DNA of 64,000 bases, taken from NCBI GenBank assembly GCA_028715885.1, contig JAQUQX010000002.1, positions 1 through 64,000 of the forward strand, written 5' to 3'. The notes beneath the pieces are model-generated. The model was not told the DNA's origin, searched no databases, and was given only the letters and a program-made list of their open reading frames with translations. The DNA comes from Candidatus Methanoperedens sp. GTDB taxonomy: Archaea > Halobacteriota > Methanosarcinia > Methanosarcinales > Methanoperedenaceae. Position numbers and translations under genes: made by a program. Position 1 is the stretch's first letter. Every line of letters starts with the position of its first letter. Below, in pieces: positions 51,772 through 58,828 of this stretch.

Positions 51772-53004
51772 TTATCCTACTTTTATTACTTCAAGTTCTA
51801 TAACCTTTGCCTCGCTTCCTGTCAGGGAAGCAACGCTGGGTATGGTACGTCCGTTATCGCCAGAAACCAGTTCCTTGACATACAGCCCTCCTTCACAATT
51901 TATGATGAGGACAGCGATATTTTCGCTGAACGATTCAAGCTCGGTTGAATGAACCCTGCGTATTCGTTCAAGGTCGGCGCGCCTGTGAAGCACTCTGGTG
52001 GGTGTTTTCTGTTTGATTGGAGTTCCACTTATTATGTCGAGGGATGATTTAAGTTTTTCCTCTGTTGTATGATGTTCGATTTTAAGGCGATAGATTTTAT
52101 TGGCTTTCATTGATTTTAGCTGTTCAACAGTCTCGCTTTCCACGAATTTCAGCCCCAGAACTTCGATTTTCCCGGCAGCTTTGCTGTTTATATCAGATTC
52201 AAGCAATGCTAAATCCATGCCCCTTATATGCGGTCTTTTCGCTTCGACCACAAATGGGCGACCATCACCAAGCATGAGGGCATCTATGTCCTCACGCCCG
52301 GCGCCATGAAAGGCAGTATCCTCGCATTGCGCCGCTGCCACAAGATGCGGCTTTATAAGTTCGTCCACGGACTCCTGGTACATCTTGCCGGTGTTATCGC
52401 ACCGCTCGCACCCTTTGCCGCTGCATTCCCTGCACGGCCATCGTGTCTGGGGAATCCCACGAATGAGTTTCCTGTACCTGCCGTATATGTATAGGGAATT
52501 AATCTCAAGTTCGAAGTTATCGTTTTCAATGTCCAGAAGCGCTACGATTTGCGGTTTTTTGAGGTTCGCCTTTTTTCCTGTCTGTTTTTCAATCCTTTTC
52601 CCGACTTCCCGGTTCAATTCTGTTTTAAGAGGCTCGGCAAATGTAGTCCCGCTTTCCGCCCAGATAATCTCCTCATTCTCGGCTAATAATCCTGTTACCT
52701 TTGTTCCGACAAGGAAATTGTAGTATTCGTAATCAGAAAGCGCCGTGATTGCCTTTTGCGCCCATGAATCAAGATGTTCAAAGAGGTTATTGCAAACCCA
52801 GCATTTGCCTGCGCTTTTTGCAAGCAAATCCTTGAGCGTTTCATCTTTCTGGGCGCCCGCCTCCATTGCAAGTACGAGTCTCAATGCTTTTCCGCGCTGG
52901 TCGTTGCTTAATCCCGTTGAAAGTTTTGCAAACTGCCTTCCGAGGCAGTGGTCGCAAATGGAGCCCTCATGCAGGATTTTGCGCGCTGTGTCCAGTATTG
53001 TCAT
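51772..53004 (-). CDS. pus10: tRNA pseudouridine synthase Pus10
   Basis: A 410-residue enzyme forming pseudouridine 54/55 in archaeal tRNA. The N-terminal cysteine and THUMP-containing part has [12 protein letters not shown] and CWVCNNLF; zinc-like [12 protein letters not shown] lies just before the catalytic domain, and the catalytic Asp is in [36 protein letters not shown] precedes the C-terminal [19 protein letters not shown] segment. Downstream of trmY, whose product methylates the pseudouridine 54 that Pus10 makes, so two successive tRNA-modifying steps share one operon. Confidence 0.95.
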
Positions 53005-53028
53005 TCAGCCCTGAATATGCGCTGTGTT

Positions 53029-53613
53029 CTAAATATGTTTCTCTACCCTGTCCATTTCATTATGTAATAGAACGATGCAATGGTCGGCATGCAGGGATAG
53101 CGGACCTACGCTTAATATCTCATGTTCGTTTGTTTCGATTGTTTTTTCTTCGTCATCTGTGAGACCAAGATGGTCGCCCAGGACGAATAAAGGCTCATCA
53201 AACGTCATTCTCCGGACATTCTCACCATCCTCTCGCAAATATATTATTTTCTTGCCAAGTTCTACAAGAAGGTCACTGAAAGTGCCTTTCCTGATGTACA
53301 CTCCGGGCGTGGATTCTGTCCAGAATTCCTGCACGTTCTTCTCAAGGGCTTTTTTTATAAGAGAGGCTGCGCTTCGCTCATCGGGGCTTAAATACCTGAC
53401 TTCGGCGCCGTCAAAACGGATGAGCTTCGGAGGGACTGGCTCGCCCTTCAGGACAAGATATACACGAACGTCTCTTCTTAAGTCATGGGAGAGAAAGAGC
53501 GCGGCATTGACGCACCGGCACAGGATGTCCATGCGTCCTGCGGCGCCTGGGAGGTCGTTCAGGGAAAAAGGGGCTGTAACAGCTTTATGACCGATGATTA
53601 CGAAGTCTTTCAT
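53029..53613 (-). CDS. trmY: tRNA (pseudouridine54-N1)-methyltransferase TrmY
   Basis: A 194-residue SPOUT methyltransferase that converts pseudouridine 54 to N1-methylpseudouridine in archaeal tRNA. The trefoil-knot C-terminal half contains PLFVLGDHLGLTDDEE and LSVGPLSLHADHCIVLLHNEMDR. First gene of the operon with pus10, 24 bases upstream of it. The ATG at 53611-53613 is the 3' end of a 9-bp hairpin (see leader), so translation may be gated. Confidence 0.95.
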   Translation of the reverse strand: MKDFVIIGHKAVTAPFSLNDLPGAAGRMDILCRCVNAALFLSHDLRRDVRVYLVLKGEPVPPKLIRFDGAEVRYLSPDERSAASLIKKALEKNVQEFWTESTPGVYIRKGTFSDLLVELGKKIIYLREDGENVRRMTFDEPLFVLGDHLGLTDDEEKTIETNEHEILSVGPLSLHADHCIVLLHNEMDRVEKHI

Positions 53614-53712
53614 AAAGGGTTACGCCCCTTTATGACGTCCCGAGTCACGCCTCGGGAGGGCGTGTGCGCGGTGTAAACCGACGCAACAGTTTTTGATAAA
53701 CCTTTCTTAAAG
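53611..53712 (-). promoter_or_regulatory. trmY leader: promoter block, hairpin, and start-codon hairpin (copy B)
   Basis: On the minus strand, 53712-53691 reads CTTTAAGAAAGGTTTATC plus AAAA, probably BRE/TATA. A CCCGAG-N6-CTCGGG hairpin lies at 53639-53656. Finally CATAAAGGG-N6-CCCTTTATG (53634-53611) makes a perfect 9-bp stem whose last three bases are the trmY ATG. The first and last blocks recur almost unchanged before the coiled-coil gene at 57121. In RNA the start codon would be paired. Confidence 0.65.
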
Positions 53713-53800
53713 TTTTTCATGTGAGCAAAAAAGTCATGGGATATATTAAAGGTAGCTCGCTCTAAGGACTATCGACTGGAAATCTAATATGAAATGCCAG

Positions 53801-53941
53801 CTATTTCCATTCGTACATTTCGACATGCGGGGTTTCGCAACAGAGGCAGCTTCCGCACATCACATTGATGGTAAACTGCGGCGCGCCGCAGTCGCATGGC
53901 GCACATTCTTCGCAGCCTTTCTTGCATTGCCGGAAATCCAT
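53801..53941 (-). CDS. 46-residue cysteine-rich protein (putative metal or cluster binder)
   Basis: ATG 53939-53941 opens MDFRQCKKGCEECAPCDCGA, then PQFTINVMCGSCLCCETPHV and EMYEWK before TAG. Nine of 46 residues are Cys, arranged CxxxCxxCxxCxC and CxxCxCC, separated by a hydrophobic strand. This could hold zinc or an iron-sulfur cluster, like small metal carriers. A TATA-like AGTATAAT lies about 30 bases upstream of the ATG on the minus strand. No family is recognised. The regular Cys spacing and codon use argue for a real gene. Confidence 0.6.
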   Translation of the reverse strand: MDFRQCKKGCEECAPCDCGAPQFTINVMCGSCLCCETPHVEMYEWK

Positions 53942-54005
53942 GCTAATGTATTATTCGATTATACTAAAAATAAGTTGCGGTTGAAGAGCGCCATTGTATA
54001 TTTTC

Positions 54006-54599
54006 TTAACCCTTTTTATATCCATGGAAAAGTTCGCTTCCCGCGCCGGGATAGACTATCCTTTCATCCGGCGGCGTCACCCGTCTGGCTTCCTGCCATT
54101 TTTTCTGCGGCTCTGAACCTTCAAGCGCAGCCTTTGTAGGCTGTACATCTCCCATCCCCGGCGTCTTCCTGATATCGATTCCACTCACATTATGGCTGAA
54201 TTCTATGGGAATGTTATTGGGGTCATAGGCATATATGGAATGGATGAAACCATGGTCAATGACCTCGGAAACCTCGAATCCTGCGGCTTCAAGCTTCGCT
54301 TTCAATTTCCAGAGGTCTTCCTCCTCCTCGACGCCAAAAGAAACATGGTCAAAACCGAATTTGCCGCTCACAGGTCTCCCATGCTCTTTTTTTATCATGG
54401 GTTCAACGCCTTTCCACTCAAAGAAAGCTATCAGGTCTGTTGGCGAAATCTCAAAAAAATAATGCCGATAACCCGGCTGCCCGAGACCTGCCACAAGCCG
54501 CATTCCCAGCAGGTCGCGCCAGAAGCGTATCGTCTTATCCATATCTCCGGTTGCCATTGCAAGATGATTGATGCCGTTAAAATTTATCCTGATTGACAT
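54006..54599 (-). CDS. VOC-superfamily (glyoxalase/dioxygenase-like) protein
   Basis: A 197-residue protein with two paired beta-alpha-beta-beta-beta modules: INHLAMATGDMDKTIRFWRDLLGMRLV (metal His) and GFDHVSFGVEEEEDLWKLKAKLEAAGFEV (second His), with acidic ligand candidates in LIAFFEW and PIEFSHN. It resembles glyoxalase I, fosfomycin-resistance and extradiol dioxygenase folds; the substrate is not evident. The C-terminal 40 residues are an extension beyond the usual fold. Confidence 0.85.
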   Translation of the reverse strand: MSIRINFNGINHLAMATGDMDKTIRFWRDLLGMRLVAGLGQPGYRHYFFEISPTDLIAFFEWKGVEPMIKKEHGRPVSGKFGFDHVSFGVEEEEDLWKLKAKLEAAGFEVSEVIDHGFIHSIYAYDPNNIPIEFSHNVSGIDIRKTPGMGDVQPTKAALEGSEPQKKWQEARRVTPPDERIVYPGAGSELFHGYKKG

Positions 54600-54666
54600 T
54601 TGCTAACCTCACACATATATTGAGGCTCGAAACATTGATGTACTTTTCGGACTTTAGTAGTTCCAA

Positions 54667-56751
54667 ATGGCACAATCATCGGTTCAAATATGGGAAGATT
54701 TCTTCAAACGTTATTACTGGGAGAACATACTTGAACTCGCCAAGGATTATCCCGAAAAACGCAGTCTTGCAGTTCAGTTTCCGGATATTGAACAATTTGA
54801 CCCGGATATTGCACGCGAGCTGATTGAGCATCCCGACCCCGTACTAAAACATGCAAACGAAGCGCTCAATGCAATTGACCTGCCTGCAGACGTTATTTTT
54901 ACCAGCACTCACGTCCGGATTATCAAGCTTCCTCAACGCATCCAGATAAGGGAATTACGAAGCTCCGACATTAATAAATGTATAGCAGTATCCGGTCTTA
55001 TCAGGAAAGCCACTGAAGTAAGACCCAAGATTATCAATGCGGCTTTCAAATGCCAGAGATGCGGGCAAGTCACCCTGGTTCCGCAGGCAGAAGGCAAATT
55101 CGTTGAGCCGTTTGAATGTGAAAGCGAGGAATGCGGGCGCAAAGGTCCGTTTAAACTCATCCACGAAGAATCCGAATTCATCGATGCGCAGAAGCTGCGG
55201 ATTCAGGAATCGCCAGACGACCTGCGCGGCGGGGAGCAGCCCCAGACTCTGGATGTGGATGTTGACGACGACCTTGCGGGAATCGTTTCGCCTGGCGACC
55301 GCGTTGTAATATCGGGAATACTGCGCTCATACCAGAGAAGCACCCCGCACGGGAAAAGCACTTTCTTTGACCTCGTGCTTGACGGCGTATCAATCGAAAT
55401 CGAGGACAAGGAGTTTAAAGACATAGAGATTTCAAACGAAGATATCGAAAAGATATTGTCACTCGGGAAAGACCCCGAAGTTTACAAGAATATAATAAAA
55501 TCCATAGCGCCTTCGATTTATGGTTATGATGAAGTCAAGGAAGCCATGGCGCTTCAGCTTTTCTCAGGCGTGCCAAAAAACCTCCCGGACGGCACCCGAA
55601 TACGCGGCGACATGCATATTCTTCTTGTGGGCGACCCGGGCGTTGCGAAATCCCAATTGCTGCGCTACGCAGTTAAGCTTGCTCCACGGGGAATTTACAC
55701 AAGCGGCAAAAGCTCAACCTCGGCAGGCCTCACAGCGACAGCGGTCAAGGACGAGTTCGGGGAGGGGCGGTGGACGCTTGAAGCAGGTGCTCTAGTGCTG
55801 GCAGATATGGGTCTGGCATGCGTGGACGAACTAGACAAGATGGAAGCGGATGACAGAAGTTCCATGCACGAGGCTATGGAGCAGCAGACTATCAGCATCG
55901 CAAAAGCAGGCATCATGGCGACCTTGAAATCCCGGTGCGCGCTTCTGGGCGCAGCCAATCCCAAATTCGGGAGGTTTGACAGGTACGAGCCTATCGCAAA
56001 GCAGATTAACATGCCTCCGGCTCTCCTTTCGCGTTTTGATTTGATTTTCATTCTTACAGACGAACCATCGGTAAGCAGGGATACCGCAATTGCTGAGCAT
56101 ATACTGAAAGCCCATTATGCAGGCGAGCTTGCCGTGAGAAAGGAATACATCATCAATTCCGGCATAAGTGAAGAAGAGATAACGAGCGCCATGGAGGTTA
56201 TCCAACCGGAAATAGAGTCAGAGATGCTGCGCAAATATATCGCTTATACAAAGAGGAACATCTTTCCCATTATCCAGGATGATGCACGCAAGCAGTTGAT
56301 TGACTTTTACCTTGGCTTGCGAAAACAGGGCGAAGACCCCAGTTCCCCGGTGCCAGTGACGGCGCGCCAGCTTGAAGCCCTTATCCGCCTGACTGAAGCC
56401 AGCGCCCGCGTGCGGCTGAGCAGCGTCATAACTACGGAGGATACCTCCCGCGTCATCCGTATAGTGATGGCAAGCCTCAAACAGGTAATGACAGATCCGG
56501 AAACCGGCAAGCTGGATTCTGACATCATTAACGTGGGGATGGGTAAGAGTCAGCGCGTTAAGGTTAAGACGTTGAAAGAAATAATCAGGGAGCTTCAGGA
56601 AGAATATAAGAGCGCAGTGCCACTGGAAGAGATTATATCCAGGGCGGAAGAATCAGGCATCAAGAAAGATACTGTTGAAGACATGATACAAAAATTAAAG
56701 CAGGTTGGAGAAATACTTGAGGCGAGCAACAACAAGTTCAGGGTAGTTTGA
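54667..56751 (+). CDS. mcm: Replicative DNA helicase MCM
   Basis: A 694-residue archaeal MCM. The N-terminal domain includes a zinc finger (CQRCGQ ... CESEECG) and beta-hairpin; the AAA+ core has Walker A VGDPGVAKSQLL, Walker B LACVDELDKM, sensor 1 GAANPKFG and arginine finger LLSRFDLIF; a C-terminal winged helix (about 625-694) follows. Forms the hexameric replicative helicase. It forms an operon with the DUF424 gene, whose start is two bases past the MCM stop. Confidence 0.98.
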   Translation: MAQSSVQIWEDFFKRYYWENILELAKDYPEKRSLAVQFPDIEQFDPDIARELIEHPDPVLKHANEALNAIDLPADVIFTSTHVRIIKLPQRIQIRELRSSDINKCIAVSGLIRKATEVRPKIINAAFKCQRCGQVTLVPQAEGKFVEPFECESEECGRKGPFKLIHEESEFIDAQKLRIQESPDDLRGGEQPQTLDVDVDDDLAGIVSPGDRVVISGILRSYQRSTPHGKSTFFDLVLDGVSIEIEDKEFKDIEISNEDIEKILSLGKDPEVYKNIIKSIAPSIYGYDEVKEAMALQLFSGVPKNLPDGTRIRGDMHILLVGDPGVAKSQLLRYAVKLAPRGIYTSGKSSTSAGLTATAVKDEFGEGRWTLEAGALVLADMGLACVDELDKMEADDRSSMHEAMEQQTISIAKAGIMATLKSRCALLGAANPKFGRFDRYEPIAKQINMPPALLSRFDLIFILTDEPSVSRDTAIAEHILKAHYAGELAVRKEYIINSGISEEEITSAMEVIQPEIESEMLRKYIAYTKRNIFPIIQDDARKQLIDFYLGLRKQGEDPSSPVPVTARQLEALIRLTEASARVRLSSVITTEDTSRVIRIVMASLKQVMTDPETGKLDSDIINVGMGKSQRVKVKTLKEIIRELQEEYKSAVPLEEIISRAEESGIKKDTVEDMIQKLKQVGEILEASNNKFRVV

Positions 56752-56753
56752 AT

Positions 56754-57044
56754 ATGTTCATGAAAAAATACGATACAGACGGGCAAACCATTGTAGCGGT
56801 CTGCGATAAGAACATTATCGGAAAAAAATTCAGGGAAGGCGCCCTTCTTCTTCAACTGGATGAATGCTTTTATAAAGGTGAAGATGCATGCGAAGAGGAA
56901 GTAAAAGAGGCTCTCCAGAGTGCTACAATCGCAAACGTCGCAGGTGAAAAATCAATCGCATGCGCTGTTGAATGCGGGTGTGTTGACCCTGAGACCATTA
57001 TATTTATCGAAGACATCCCTCATGCGCAGATGGTGAAGATATGA
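56754..57044 (+). CDS. DUF424 protein
   Basis: A 96-residue archaeal DUF424 protein: DGQTIVAVCDKNIIGKKFREGALLLQL, then KEALQSATIANVAGEKSIACAVECGCVDPETIIFIEDIPHAQMV. The family is conserved across archaea and often neighbours replication or translation genes; its function is unknown. It follows mcm immediately. ATG 56754 is preferred over the TTG at 56748. Confidence 0.85.
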   Translation: MFMKKYDTDGQTIVAVCDKNIIGKKFREGALLLQLDECFYKGEDACEEEVKEALQSATIANVAGEKSIACAVECGCVDPETIIFIEDIPHAQMVKI

Positions 57045-57048
57045 AAAC

Positions 57049-57123
57049 CTTTAAGAAAGGTTTATCAAAAGAAGGGGTATGTGCCATACCCCTATATGTC
57101 ATAAAGGGGTGTAACCCTTTATG
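57049..57123 (+). promoter_or_regulatory. Leader of the coiled-coil gene pair: promoter block and start-codon hairpin (copy A)
   Basis: CTTTAAGAAAGGTTTATC plus AAAA (57049-57070) is identical over 22 bases to the trmY leader. A GGGGTATG-TGC-CATACCCC hairpin follows (57074-57092), then CATAAAGGG-N6-CCCTTTATG (57100-57123), a 9-bp perfect stem that ends with the start codon at 57121. The final hairpin differs from the trmY copy only by T versus C in the loop. The middle hairpin is unrelated in sequence but occupies the same position. Confidence 0.65.
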
Positions 57124-57780
57124 AGCGAAATAATTGAAACCAACAGGTTAATCGAAATGGTTATTGATAAGCATAACAGGTTTCTTGAAACATTTAATTC
57201 TGAATTTAAAGAGATTGAAAGTAAGCTAAATCTTATAAAACAACAATCAGATGCAGTTAAAAAAGAATTAGAAACCACTGAAACAAGAATAACAGTCCTT
57301 AATGAGAAATATTACCTGCTTTTCCACCAGGCAAAAAAACAGAGGGAAGAGATATTCAGGCAGGCGCTTGAAAAGATGCGTGCGGGTAAGGCGATTAATT
57401 TTCAGGATGTAATGCGCCTTTCCAGCAGAATAGAAGAATTTGAGAAGAAACTACATAATTCTAAAAATATTGAAGATGAAGAAAGGACAATAGTTGAAAT
57501 TAAAAAACTGCTGTACGATTTTGAATCTGCGGTAAGAAAAGCGGGGATAATTGTAACATCAGTAGGGATTATAGATAAATTAAATGAAGCAAACTCATCC
57601 CACAAAGAACTGGCAGCGCTTCAGAATAAGCCTAAGCAGGATGCAGGCTCTGTAAATGATATTGACAGGCAAGCAGGCGAGATTGACGAGCGCCATAACT
57701 GGTTAAAACGCAGGATTGAAAGTCATAACAATGCCCTTGCTTACTGGGAAAAACAAAAAGGCGGGATTAATGTTGGCTGA
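57121..57780 (+). CDS. Coiled-coil protein of unknown function
   Basis: A 219-residue, lysine/glutamate-rich, predicted long coiled coil (KEIESKLNLIKQQSDAVKKELETTETRITVLNEKY; SSRIEEFEKKLHNSK; DRQAGEIDERHNWLKRRIE) without membrane segment. Overlaps the next coiled-coil gene by 11 bases, so the two may form a hetero-oligomer. Its start codon is inside a conserved hairpin shared with trmY. Confidence 0.75.
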   Translation: MSEIIETNRLIEMVIDKHNRFLETFNSEFKEIESKLNLIKQQSDAVKKELETTETRITVLNEKYYLLFHQAKKQREEIFRQALEKMRAGKAINFQDVMRLSSRIEEFEKKLHNSKNIEDEERTIVEIKKLLYDFESAVRKAGIIVTSVGIIDKLNEANSSHKELAALQNKPKQDAGSVNDIDRQAGEIDERHNWLKRRIESHNNALAYWEKQKGGINVG

Positions 57781-58828
57781 ACCTGAGAATACGCAGGATG
57801 TAAAGGCAGAGGTTAGCGCACCGGCAGATGTGCCTGCCAGTACCCCGGTTGAAGCATCAGTTGAACCTGTTATTGAACAGAAGGATGAAAATGTGAACGC
57901 TGAAGTTATTCAGCAAGCGCTTCCCAAGCTTACAGAGCGGGAATTAAAAGAAAAAATCAACCTTCTGCGGCAGCGAGTGGAGCAAAACGAGAGGGAACTG
58001 AAAAGCACGTTCCGGGAGATTTCACTTCATAATACAGGAGGGGACGAATTAAAAACCAAACGCGATAGCCTGAATGCCCGGACTAAAGAGTTGTTCCAGA
58101 AAGCCGCAGAGCTGCGAAAAAAGCGTGATGAGGCAAATGCCAGGATTGCAGAGTTGAAATCGCAGCGTGACAGGCTCAGGGGCATCGGGAAGGAATTTAG
58201 CGAAAAAGTGGGTGAACTCAAGAAAACCCGCGACGAGCTGAACCAGACAGCGCGGGGAAGACTTGAAACCCTTGAAAAAGCATACGGCGAGGAACTTAAC
58301 CTTTTTTTGACTGCTGACCTCCCTCTTGACTATGAAATCAATATTTTTAACCGCCTGAACGAGTTGAGCCTGAGACTGGGCGCCACCAAAAAAGCGAACG
58401 AAATCCATACCGAGATTTCGGTGGAATACAGCCGGGCAAAAGAAATATACACGGATATGGATTCTCTGCATGCAAAGATTCAAACCCTTGCGCAGGAATC
58501 CCAGAAATATCATGAGGAACTTATCGCGCTTTATAAGGATATCGACGCGCTCCGCAAGGAAGCGGACTCATATCATTCACAGTTGACAGAGAAATATAAA
58601 GGAATAGCGCCGCTGCGGAAGAAGATTAGCGCTATCAAGGCAGAGCTTCCCAAACTGCGGGATGAGCTCGGGATTTACCTTGAACAGATGAAGGAAGTCC
58701 AGTTAACGAAAGATGAGCAGAAAAACATAGGGAAGCGGGAGGAGGCAAGGGAGAAATTCCAGAAAAACGGGCGCGTGAGTCTTGATGAGTTCAGGATTCT
58801 GGTTGAGAACGAGGATATTAAGCTTTAG
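57770..58828 (+). CDS. Archaeal coiled-coil protein (COG1340-like)
   Basis: A 352-residue protein: an acidic, low-complexity N-terminus (about 1-50, rich in Ala/Pro/Val/Glu) and a long coiled coil (LTERELKEKINLLRQRVEQNERELKST, KRDSLNARTKELFQKAAELRKKRDEANARIAELKSQRDRLRG, LRKKISAIKAELPKLRDEL). The sequence fits the COG1340 'uncharacterised archaeal coiled-coil' group; such proteins are sometimes mislabelled as phosphoserine phosphatase. ATG 57770 is chosen because it needs only a short overlap with the upstream gene; the frame to 57716 lies deeper inside it. Confidence 0.8.
   Translation: MLAEPENTQDVKAEVSAPADVPASTPVEASVEPVIEQKDENVNAEVIQQALPKLTERELKEKINLLRQRVEQNERELKSTFREISLHNTGGDELKTKRDSLNARTKELFQKAAELRKKRDEANARIAELKSQRDRLRGIGKEFSEKVGELKKTRDELNQTARGRLETLEKAYGEELNLFLTADLPLDYEINIFNRLNELSLRLGATKKANEIHTEISVEYSRAKEIYTDMDSLHAKIQTLAQESQKYHEELIALYKDIDALRKEADSYHSQLTEKYKGIAPLRKKISAIKAELPKLRDELGIYLEQMKEVQLTKDEQKNIGKREEAREKFQKNGRVSLDEFRILVENEDIKL

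Follow-up and report, generated by a model that had tools for sequence, protein, structure and literature searches.

A mobile hairpin element at gene starts of Candidatus Methanoperedens that probably rebuilds a coupled stop/start pair

Results

We analysed a stretch of 64,000 nucleotides from Candidatus Methanoperedens sp. (GenBank assembly GCA_028715885.1, contig JAQUQX010000002.1, positions 1 to 64,000; hereafter the window), in which an initial annotation had described twin leaders, each carrying a hairpin over the start codon, before trmY and before a coiled-coil gene. Rather than being the regulatory leaders of two genes, these twins represent a dispersed hairpin repeat that is present here twice. 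We consider it quite probable that the repeat is a non-autonomous hairpin element resembling the miniature inverted-repeat transposable elements (MITEs), which inserts, or survives, at the start codon in an ATGA tetranucleotide and rebuilds there a coupled stop/start pair.

The hairpin CATAAAGGG-N6-CCCTTTATG has two exact matches in the window, at 53611-53634 and 57100-57123, against 0.05 matches expected in shuffled windows even with three mismatches permitted. As initially described, the two differ by one loop base (GCGTAA or GTGTAA on the gene strand), and their final three stem bases are the ATG of trmY (minus strand, 53613) and of the coiled-coil gene (plus strand, 57121). The 22-base block CTTTAAGAAAGGTTTATCAAAA is indeed identical at 53712-53691 on the minus strand and 57049-57070 on the plus strand. 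It had been called promoter-like, but it is most of a first hairpin, H1, lying within a short open reading frame (mini-ORF); the sequence that does resemble a promoter, TTTAATATAT, is found at trmY upstream of the element, and filled and empty sites alike possess it. Nor are the middle hairpins equally positioned, as had been thought, the ATG-to-ATG insert measuring 107 nt at trmY and 80 nt at the coiled-coil gene. Both leaders can be read as an open frame that begins at an upstream ATGA (53720, minus; 57041, plus) and closes with a TGA overlapping the ATG of the gene.

At trmY (53029..53613, minus; NCBIfam NF002560 and Pfam PF04013 from residue 1), the sequence and the empty sites of three related genomes delimit an inserted mini-ORF of 36 codons, MKNFKKGLSKTVASVYTAHTPSRGVTRDVIKGRNPL (53610..53720, minus), whose TGA overlaps the trmY ATG. 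It contains H1 with one stem mismatch (53698..53716, minus) and inner palindromic modules that are seen again in other copies (53635..53693, minus), both placed by sequence and fold, followed by a last hairpin, H3, of type B, which ends in the trmY ATG (53611..53634, minus) and is supported by pattern match, covariation and fold. The second copy is a standard mini-ORF of 27 codons, MKTFKKGLSKEGVCAIPLYVIKGCNPL (57041..57124, plus), again defined by sequence and empty sites; at its 5' end the ATG overlaps the upstream gene's stop, and at its 3' end the TGA overlaps the downstream ATG. On the same strand, covariation and fold place H1 at 57045..57063 and a hairpin with a hypervariable stem, H2, at 57073..57093, and together with the pattern match they place a type B H3 ending in the downstream ATG at 57100..57123. 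The upstream gene of the ORF list encodes 98 aa (56748..57044, plus); its ATGA stop overlap is the insertion site, and the plain overlap is kept at empty sites. The coiled-coil host gene (57121..57780, plus), taken from the same list, is conserved in 29 of 30 genomes of the genus.

The initial annotation took these leaders for a pair. A census by pattern and BLAST searches found the exact hairpin pattern at 6 places in the 2.09 Mb genome of the window (none in a reversed-pattern control) and the wider family at about 27 places, with about 25 copies. BLAST of the leader against this genome (G000; other G numbers are related genomes) gave 33 matches at E<=10. Copies share the order H1 (AAAMCTTT-NNN-AAAGKTTT-ATCA), variable H2 and H3 (CATAAAGSG-N6-CSCTTTATG), with extra palindromic modules between the hairpins in some, and a standard copy adds 80 nt, ATGA-[H1-H2-H3]-ATGA. 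The H1 pattern was present in 18 of 60 related genomes (the window's own counted), every one in the same genus, with up to 43 matches per related genome and zero in the control direction. When the genome contigs of 84,980 species were scanned, the matches listed pointed to the genus Candidatus Methanoperedens, and the element was not found outside this genus in the genomes searched. Clearly unrelated organisms among the matches listed (Saprospiraceae, Clostridia, Prochlorococcus, Sulfurospirillum) had single H1-like palindromes without H3, which we read as chance. A viral origin was also rejected: the H1 pattern had 0 matches in IMG/VR, and a lone H3 match (L261) without H1 was read as chance. 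At the rpl14 start of G014, a shortened H3-bearing leader of 13 codons (L198; MKNFMNIKRGVAL) has lost most of H1 and all of H2 and retains the ATGA overlap, which suggests that H3 is the part that cannot be lost. The same genome holds degenerate tandem arrays of H1-like units (CTTAGGAAAGTTTTATCAAAAGAAGGGTATAAC repeated; L039 and L057), a form that differs from the hairpin mosaics seen elsewhere.

The trmY, rpl14 and coiled-coil loci were compared between genomes of the genus, and this comparison argues firmly that the element is mobile. The trmY site is empty in G005, G009 and G015; in the last two, gacttttttgctcac is directly joined to ATGAAAGACTTC, and the filled site of the window reads gacttttttgctcac ATGA[...]ATGAAAGACTTC. 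The rpl14 site is empty in G005 and others (gaggtggcaaa directly followed by ATGAAAGGG), filled in G009, G025, G024 and the genome of the window, and occupied by differing or shortened forms in G004 and G014. Empty coiled-coil loci have a plain ATGA overlap with the upstream gene, the filled ones being those of the window and G022. Junctions are exact at all three loci: the insertion is at the native start codon, with ATG(A) on either side of the copies and only once at empty sites. This is the pattern of a target site duplication, although the repeat of 3-4 nt could instead be the end of the element, and a multicopy short element with precise filled and empty sites is what is expected of a MITE. 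On a four-protein tree, filled and empty states are scattered among close relatives, which indicates recurrent gain or loss rather than simple inheritance of a regulatory leader. The duplication of a mobile leader, one of two meanings initially offered, is thus borne out by dispersed copies, exact empty sites and patchy distribution. The two ends of the element are each a hairpin of their own and not inverted repeats of one another. A Y1 transposase (TnpA) was considered as the mover and rejected because its presence does not follow copy number: G015 has none with 31 H1 matches and G022 one 52-codon fragment with 30. An extinct mover is possible.

In the genome of the window, 24 of the 27 H3 hairpins terminate at the start of an ORF encoding 95 aa or more, two are inside composites and one is without an ORF. 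Similarly, 18 of the 20 outermost copies in G022 end on an ORF start, and two more end on the start codon of another mini-ORF. Such stacking, with one copy on the start codon of another, was seen for L331 and L364 (G022) and L059/L197 (G024); stacked copies form two mini-ORFs in series with an ATGA overlap at each step. Host genes are unrelated (trmY, a PUA-domain RNA-binding protein, nurA, argH, rpoA2, rpl14, an aminotransferase, a glycosyltransferase, a nucleotidyltransferase, a polyprenyl synthase, a sugar epimerase, oapB and others), and for many of them the family match begins within the first few residues. The second meaning initially offered, a switch sensed by TrmY or by a tRNA state, was rejected because the genes downstream, among them rpl14, rpoA2, argH, nurA, oapB, the polyprenyl synthase and the sugar epimerase, are unrelated.

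By simple gene calls, ATGA is found in the window at 29 gene starts and 70 intergenic non-start places, so that neutral insertion at ATGA should yield mostly spacer copies; under this neutral model, 24 of 25 copies at starts has a probability of 3e-12, a figure overstated because the copies are related. The bias implies either directed insertion or a much faster loss of copies elsewhere. Blind insertion followed by survivorship, in which copies at starts are over-represented since others are lethal or quickly deleted and no targeting takes place, is a variant of the explanation proposed above and differs from it only in the origin of the site bias. We regard it as a serious contender, with somewhat less than an even chance: family members do occur in a tRNA-Tyr intron, at the kae1/bud32 junction, in other copies and in a few spacers, but almost no H3-bearing copy lies in a spacer despite the excess of spacer ATGA, and near-identical, presumably young copies are at starts too. 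Start-codon targeting of the insertion is possible. A true specificity, in which an enzyme or an RNA-level route would direct insertion to translation starts and the last hairpin, with its stop and Shine-Dalgarno motif, would restore the gene via the coupled mini-ORF, is a tentative proposal that we hold to be rather unlikely.

The structure of the hairpins is maintained. In a gapless alignment of 25 distinct 84-nt copies (three helices, 26 pairs), 98.6% of the cells were paired, eight pairs had changes on both sides, and such changes amounted to 66 cells compared to 21.4 ± 3.0 in shuffles; pairing fell to 36-63% when the partners were slid. Fold z values of the window copies were -6.2 and -5.3, and in the predicted folds the H1 and H3 stems reach into the flanking ATGA. 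In type A H3, the loop following a G is AGGTGT (24 copies), AGGTTT (4) or AGGTAT (2), which places GAGGT 8 nt before the ATG, a Shine-Dalgarno match by what is established for 16S ends in general. In type B H3, every one of the three frames is closed by a TAA or TGA near the ATG. The initial annotation had held that its idea would fall if related genomes had neither further copies nor covariation; copies proved to be many and covariation strong. Host-adopted regulatory leaders, in which hairpins and leader peptides act as a translational or attenuation switch of a regulon, would explain the strong covariation of the stems, the position of H3 over the start codon and the conserved frame. We nevertheless find this improbable: the same gene is with or without the element in close relatives, no theme is common to the host genes, copies show no relationship in H2 or peptide sequence, species differ in inner structure at one and the same gene (trmY, rpl14), and Rfam gave no match up to E = 1 across 53000-57800.

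Read from the ATG just 5' of H1, the whole element is open and closes in TTATGA, with the TGA overlapping the ATG of the next gene; MKNFRKVLSKEGYASHTLYLIKRGVAL is an example of the 27 residues of a standard copy. We counted frames in 63 distinct start-located copies. The ATGA tetranucleotide was present at the left end in 61 and at the right end in 61, and the ATG-to-ATG distance modulo 3 was 2 in 52 copies, 0 in 9 and 1 in 2. As in termination-reinitiation pairs, the first in-frame stop overlaps or nearly touches the next start, being the TGA of the ATGA in 50/63 copies and a TAA 9 nt upstream of the ATG in 8 more. Of 32 composites, 24 have an open ATG frame, as against one for each of the other two frames, so that the frame is maintained even in module-bearing copies; it persists in composites to 269 nt (399 nt in the other phase), and these reach 90 codons. 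In some copies (L053, L046, L128; CCCTTTTGA, CGCTTTTGA) the rebuilt start is TTGA in place of ATGA, and drift to a weaker restart codon may be tolerated.

The encoded peptide is not conserved in the same way. H1 residues switch from NF.KV to TF.KG along with a base-pair exchange, H2-encoded residues, the middle third, are unrelated between copies, and the peptide had no protein family match. What is kept is structure plus an open frame, not the peptide. The initial view that the stem is not explained by coding has to be reversed: the hairpins are inside a mini-ORF that is conserved in frame, though not in peptide. A functional small protein as the object of selection could account for the conserved frame and for the recurring peptide ends (MKNF-K-LS ... 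IKRGVAL or IKGRNPL); given residues that shift with stem compensation, an unrelated middle third, composites of up to 90 codons and the lack of a family match, we consider it highly improbable.

We infer that the element spares its host gene through the coupled mini-ORF. The original upstream start signals would now serve the mini-ORF, and a ribosome translating it would melt the hairpins en route, halt at the TGA inside the ATGA and resume on the ATG that overlaps it. GAGGT would aid this restart in type A H3; type B H3 would offer three-frame stops just before the ATG instead. Expression of the host gene would be preserved in this manner, including for genes expected to be essential (rpl14, rpoA2). 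As far as sequence can tell, coupling by termination-reinitiation is likely. Termination-reinitiation at ATGA has been shown in Haloferax volcanii, where a Shine-Dalgarno motif usually helps and is not essential (PMC6728339), and in bacteria reinitiation after leader peptides has been proposed to raise expression (PMC4833913).

Several points weigh against our proposal. Translation of the mini-ORF and restart are deduced steps in Methanoperedens. Nine of the 63 copies have the other phase, 8 of them stopping 9 nt ahead of the ATG. The copies are related, so that counts are not of independent events, and some family members are elsewhere (tRNA-Tyr intron, few spacers), so that start-codon specificity is not absolute. 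Finally, a mobilising enzyme was not found, nor was a longer, gene-bearing copy in the fetched loci, which cover part of the genomes. The least probable alternative, with hardly any chance in our estimate, is translational bypassing like that of mitochondrial byps, the ribosome hopping from the first ATG to the second and skipping the insert: a mobile insert of hairpins flanked by two copies of one codon fits it, but a frame open to 269 nt (399 nt in the other phase) and a stop overlapping the start would be needless for hopping.

Related hairpins have also reached other sites. An H1-H2 module is present at the kae1/bud32 junction in four genomes (G000:C43:553-1137 minus, L280, L292; G005, G022, G026), where kae1/bud32 is a single frame with the linker KPLGKVYQTGGMPSIPQH or close variants; this module alone behaves as an in-frame insertion adding residues to the host protein. 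In many relatives kae1 and bud32 are separate, overlapping genes, and another clade has them fused via a different linker. The intron of tRNA-Tyr(GTA) holds a copy as well (L279, minus strand, G000:C46:4180-4350; L336, L339, L334): this intron measures 96-111 nt in G000, G022 and G015, has a 64-nt H1-bearing form in G028, and is a plain 36-40 nt elsewhere. The duplicated bases at these two sites are ambiguous and were left out of the target-duplication evidence. In L278, L022 and further composites, another palindrome encloses a related 81-nt unit. This unit is flanked on either side by ACGT, which recurs in each arm of its last hairpin, as though that hairpin always contained the duplicated target. 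These three cases suggest that the hairpin stock is generally mobile and tolerated where harmless.

Discussion

Small mobile elements usually survive in spacers, or by splicing, skipping or fusion. Here they sit on the start codons of core genes, apparently by means of a frame that hands the ribosome on, and a leader ORF can thus arise in one step. Sister species that carry a gene in filled and in empty form provide a natural test set for archaeal termination-reinitiation. The element also points to an unexplained route of transposition in a methane oxidiser that is important in the environment and difficult to culture; start-codon specificity, if true, would give selfish DNA a novel means of persisting safely in dense, essential operons. 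The literature found describes Borg tandem repeats in connection with Methanoperedens but not this element, which is weak evidence, preprints and most subscription literature being outside its scope. Borg repeats are frame-compatible, associated with Methanoperedens, arranged in tandem and reported to be virtually absent from Methanoperedens host genomes (PMC9879509). The present element shares the frame compatibility and the association, but consists of dispersed palindromes in the host genomes.

Small mobile hairpin insertions are also known as mitochondrial byps, which the ribosome skips mid-gene. There too translation must cope with hairpins inserted in genes, but the Methanoperedens element keeps an open frame with a terminal stop. 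A short frame whose stop is near or overlaps the start of the next gene is likewise found in reinitiation leader peptides and in ATGA-overlapping gene pairs (Korolev 2016, PMC4833913; Huber 2019, PMC6728339). Reinitiation leaders are, however, resident sequences of single genes, whereas the Methanoperedens leader is mobile and repeated, and has been carried to many genes.

Rickettsia palindromic elements (RPE) are short, dispersed, palindromic and frame-compatible, occur in genes of unrelated function and are considered selfish (PMC10969869). The Methanoperedens element resembles them in being made of short dispersed palindromes, in its frame compatibility and in its unrelated host genes. RPE, however, lie within genes and add residues of a conserved peptide to the host protein, whereas this element is at the start codon and its frame ends before the host protein: 52/63 start copies do not share the host gene's frame and are closed by a stop, H2 residues are unrelated and H1 residues vary with the stem. 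The genus of the element is archaeal, and its sequence is unrelated to RPE as far as pattern searches show.

Prokaryotic MITEs of the repetitive extragenic palindromic (REP) and palindrome-associated transposable element (PATE) types, related to IS200/IS605, are likewise small, non-autonomous, dispersed and nested, with terminal hairpins and a short direct repeat at their ends. No parent transposon was found here, however, and a Y1 TnpA does not accompany the element as it would an IS200/IS605 derivative, its presence not tracking copy number. In the literature that we found, no MITE is described as ending in a precise coupled stop/start pair. The Methanoperedens element works like a MITE or RPE that is harmless to its host gene and, in addition, like a reinitiation leader peptide; for each of these kinds there is a defining test that it fails or leaves undecided. 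Because it has no parent transposon found, is no in-frame protein insert and is no resident leader, we regard it as a new variant among these systems.

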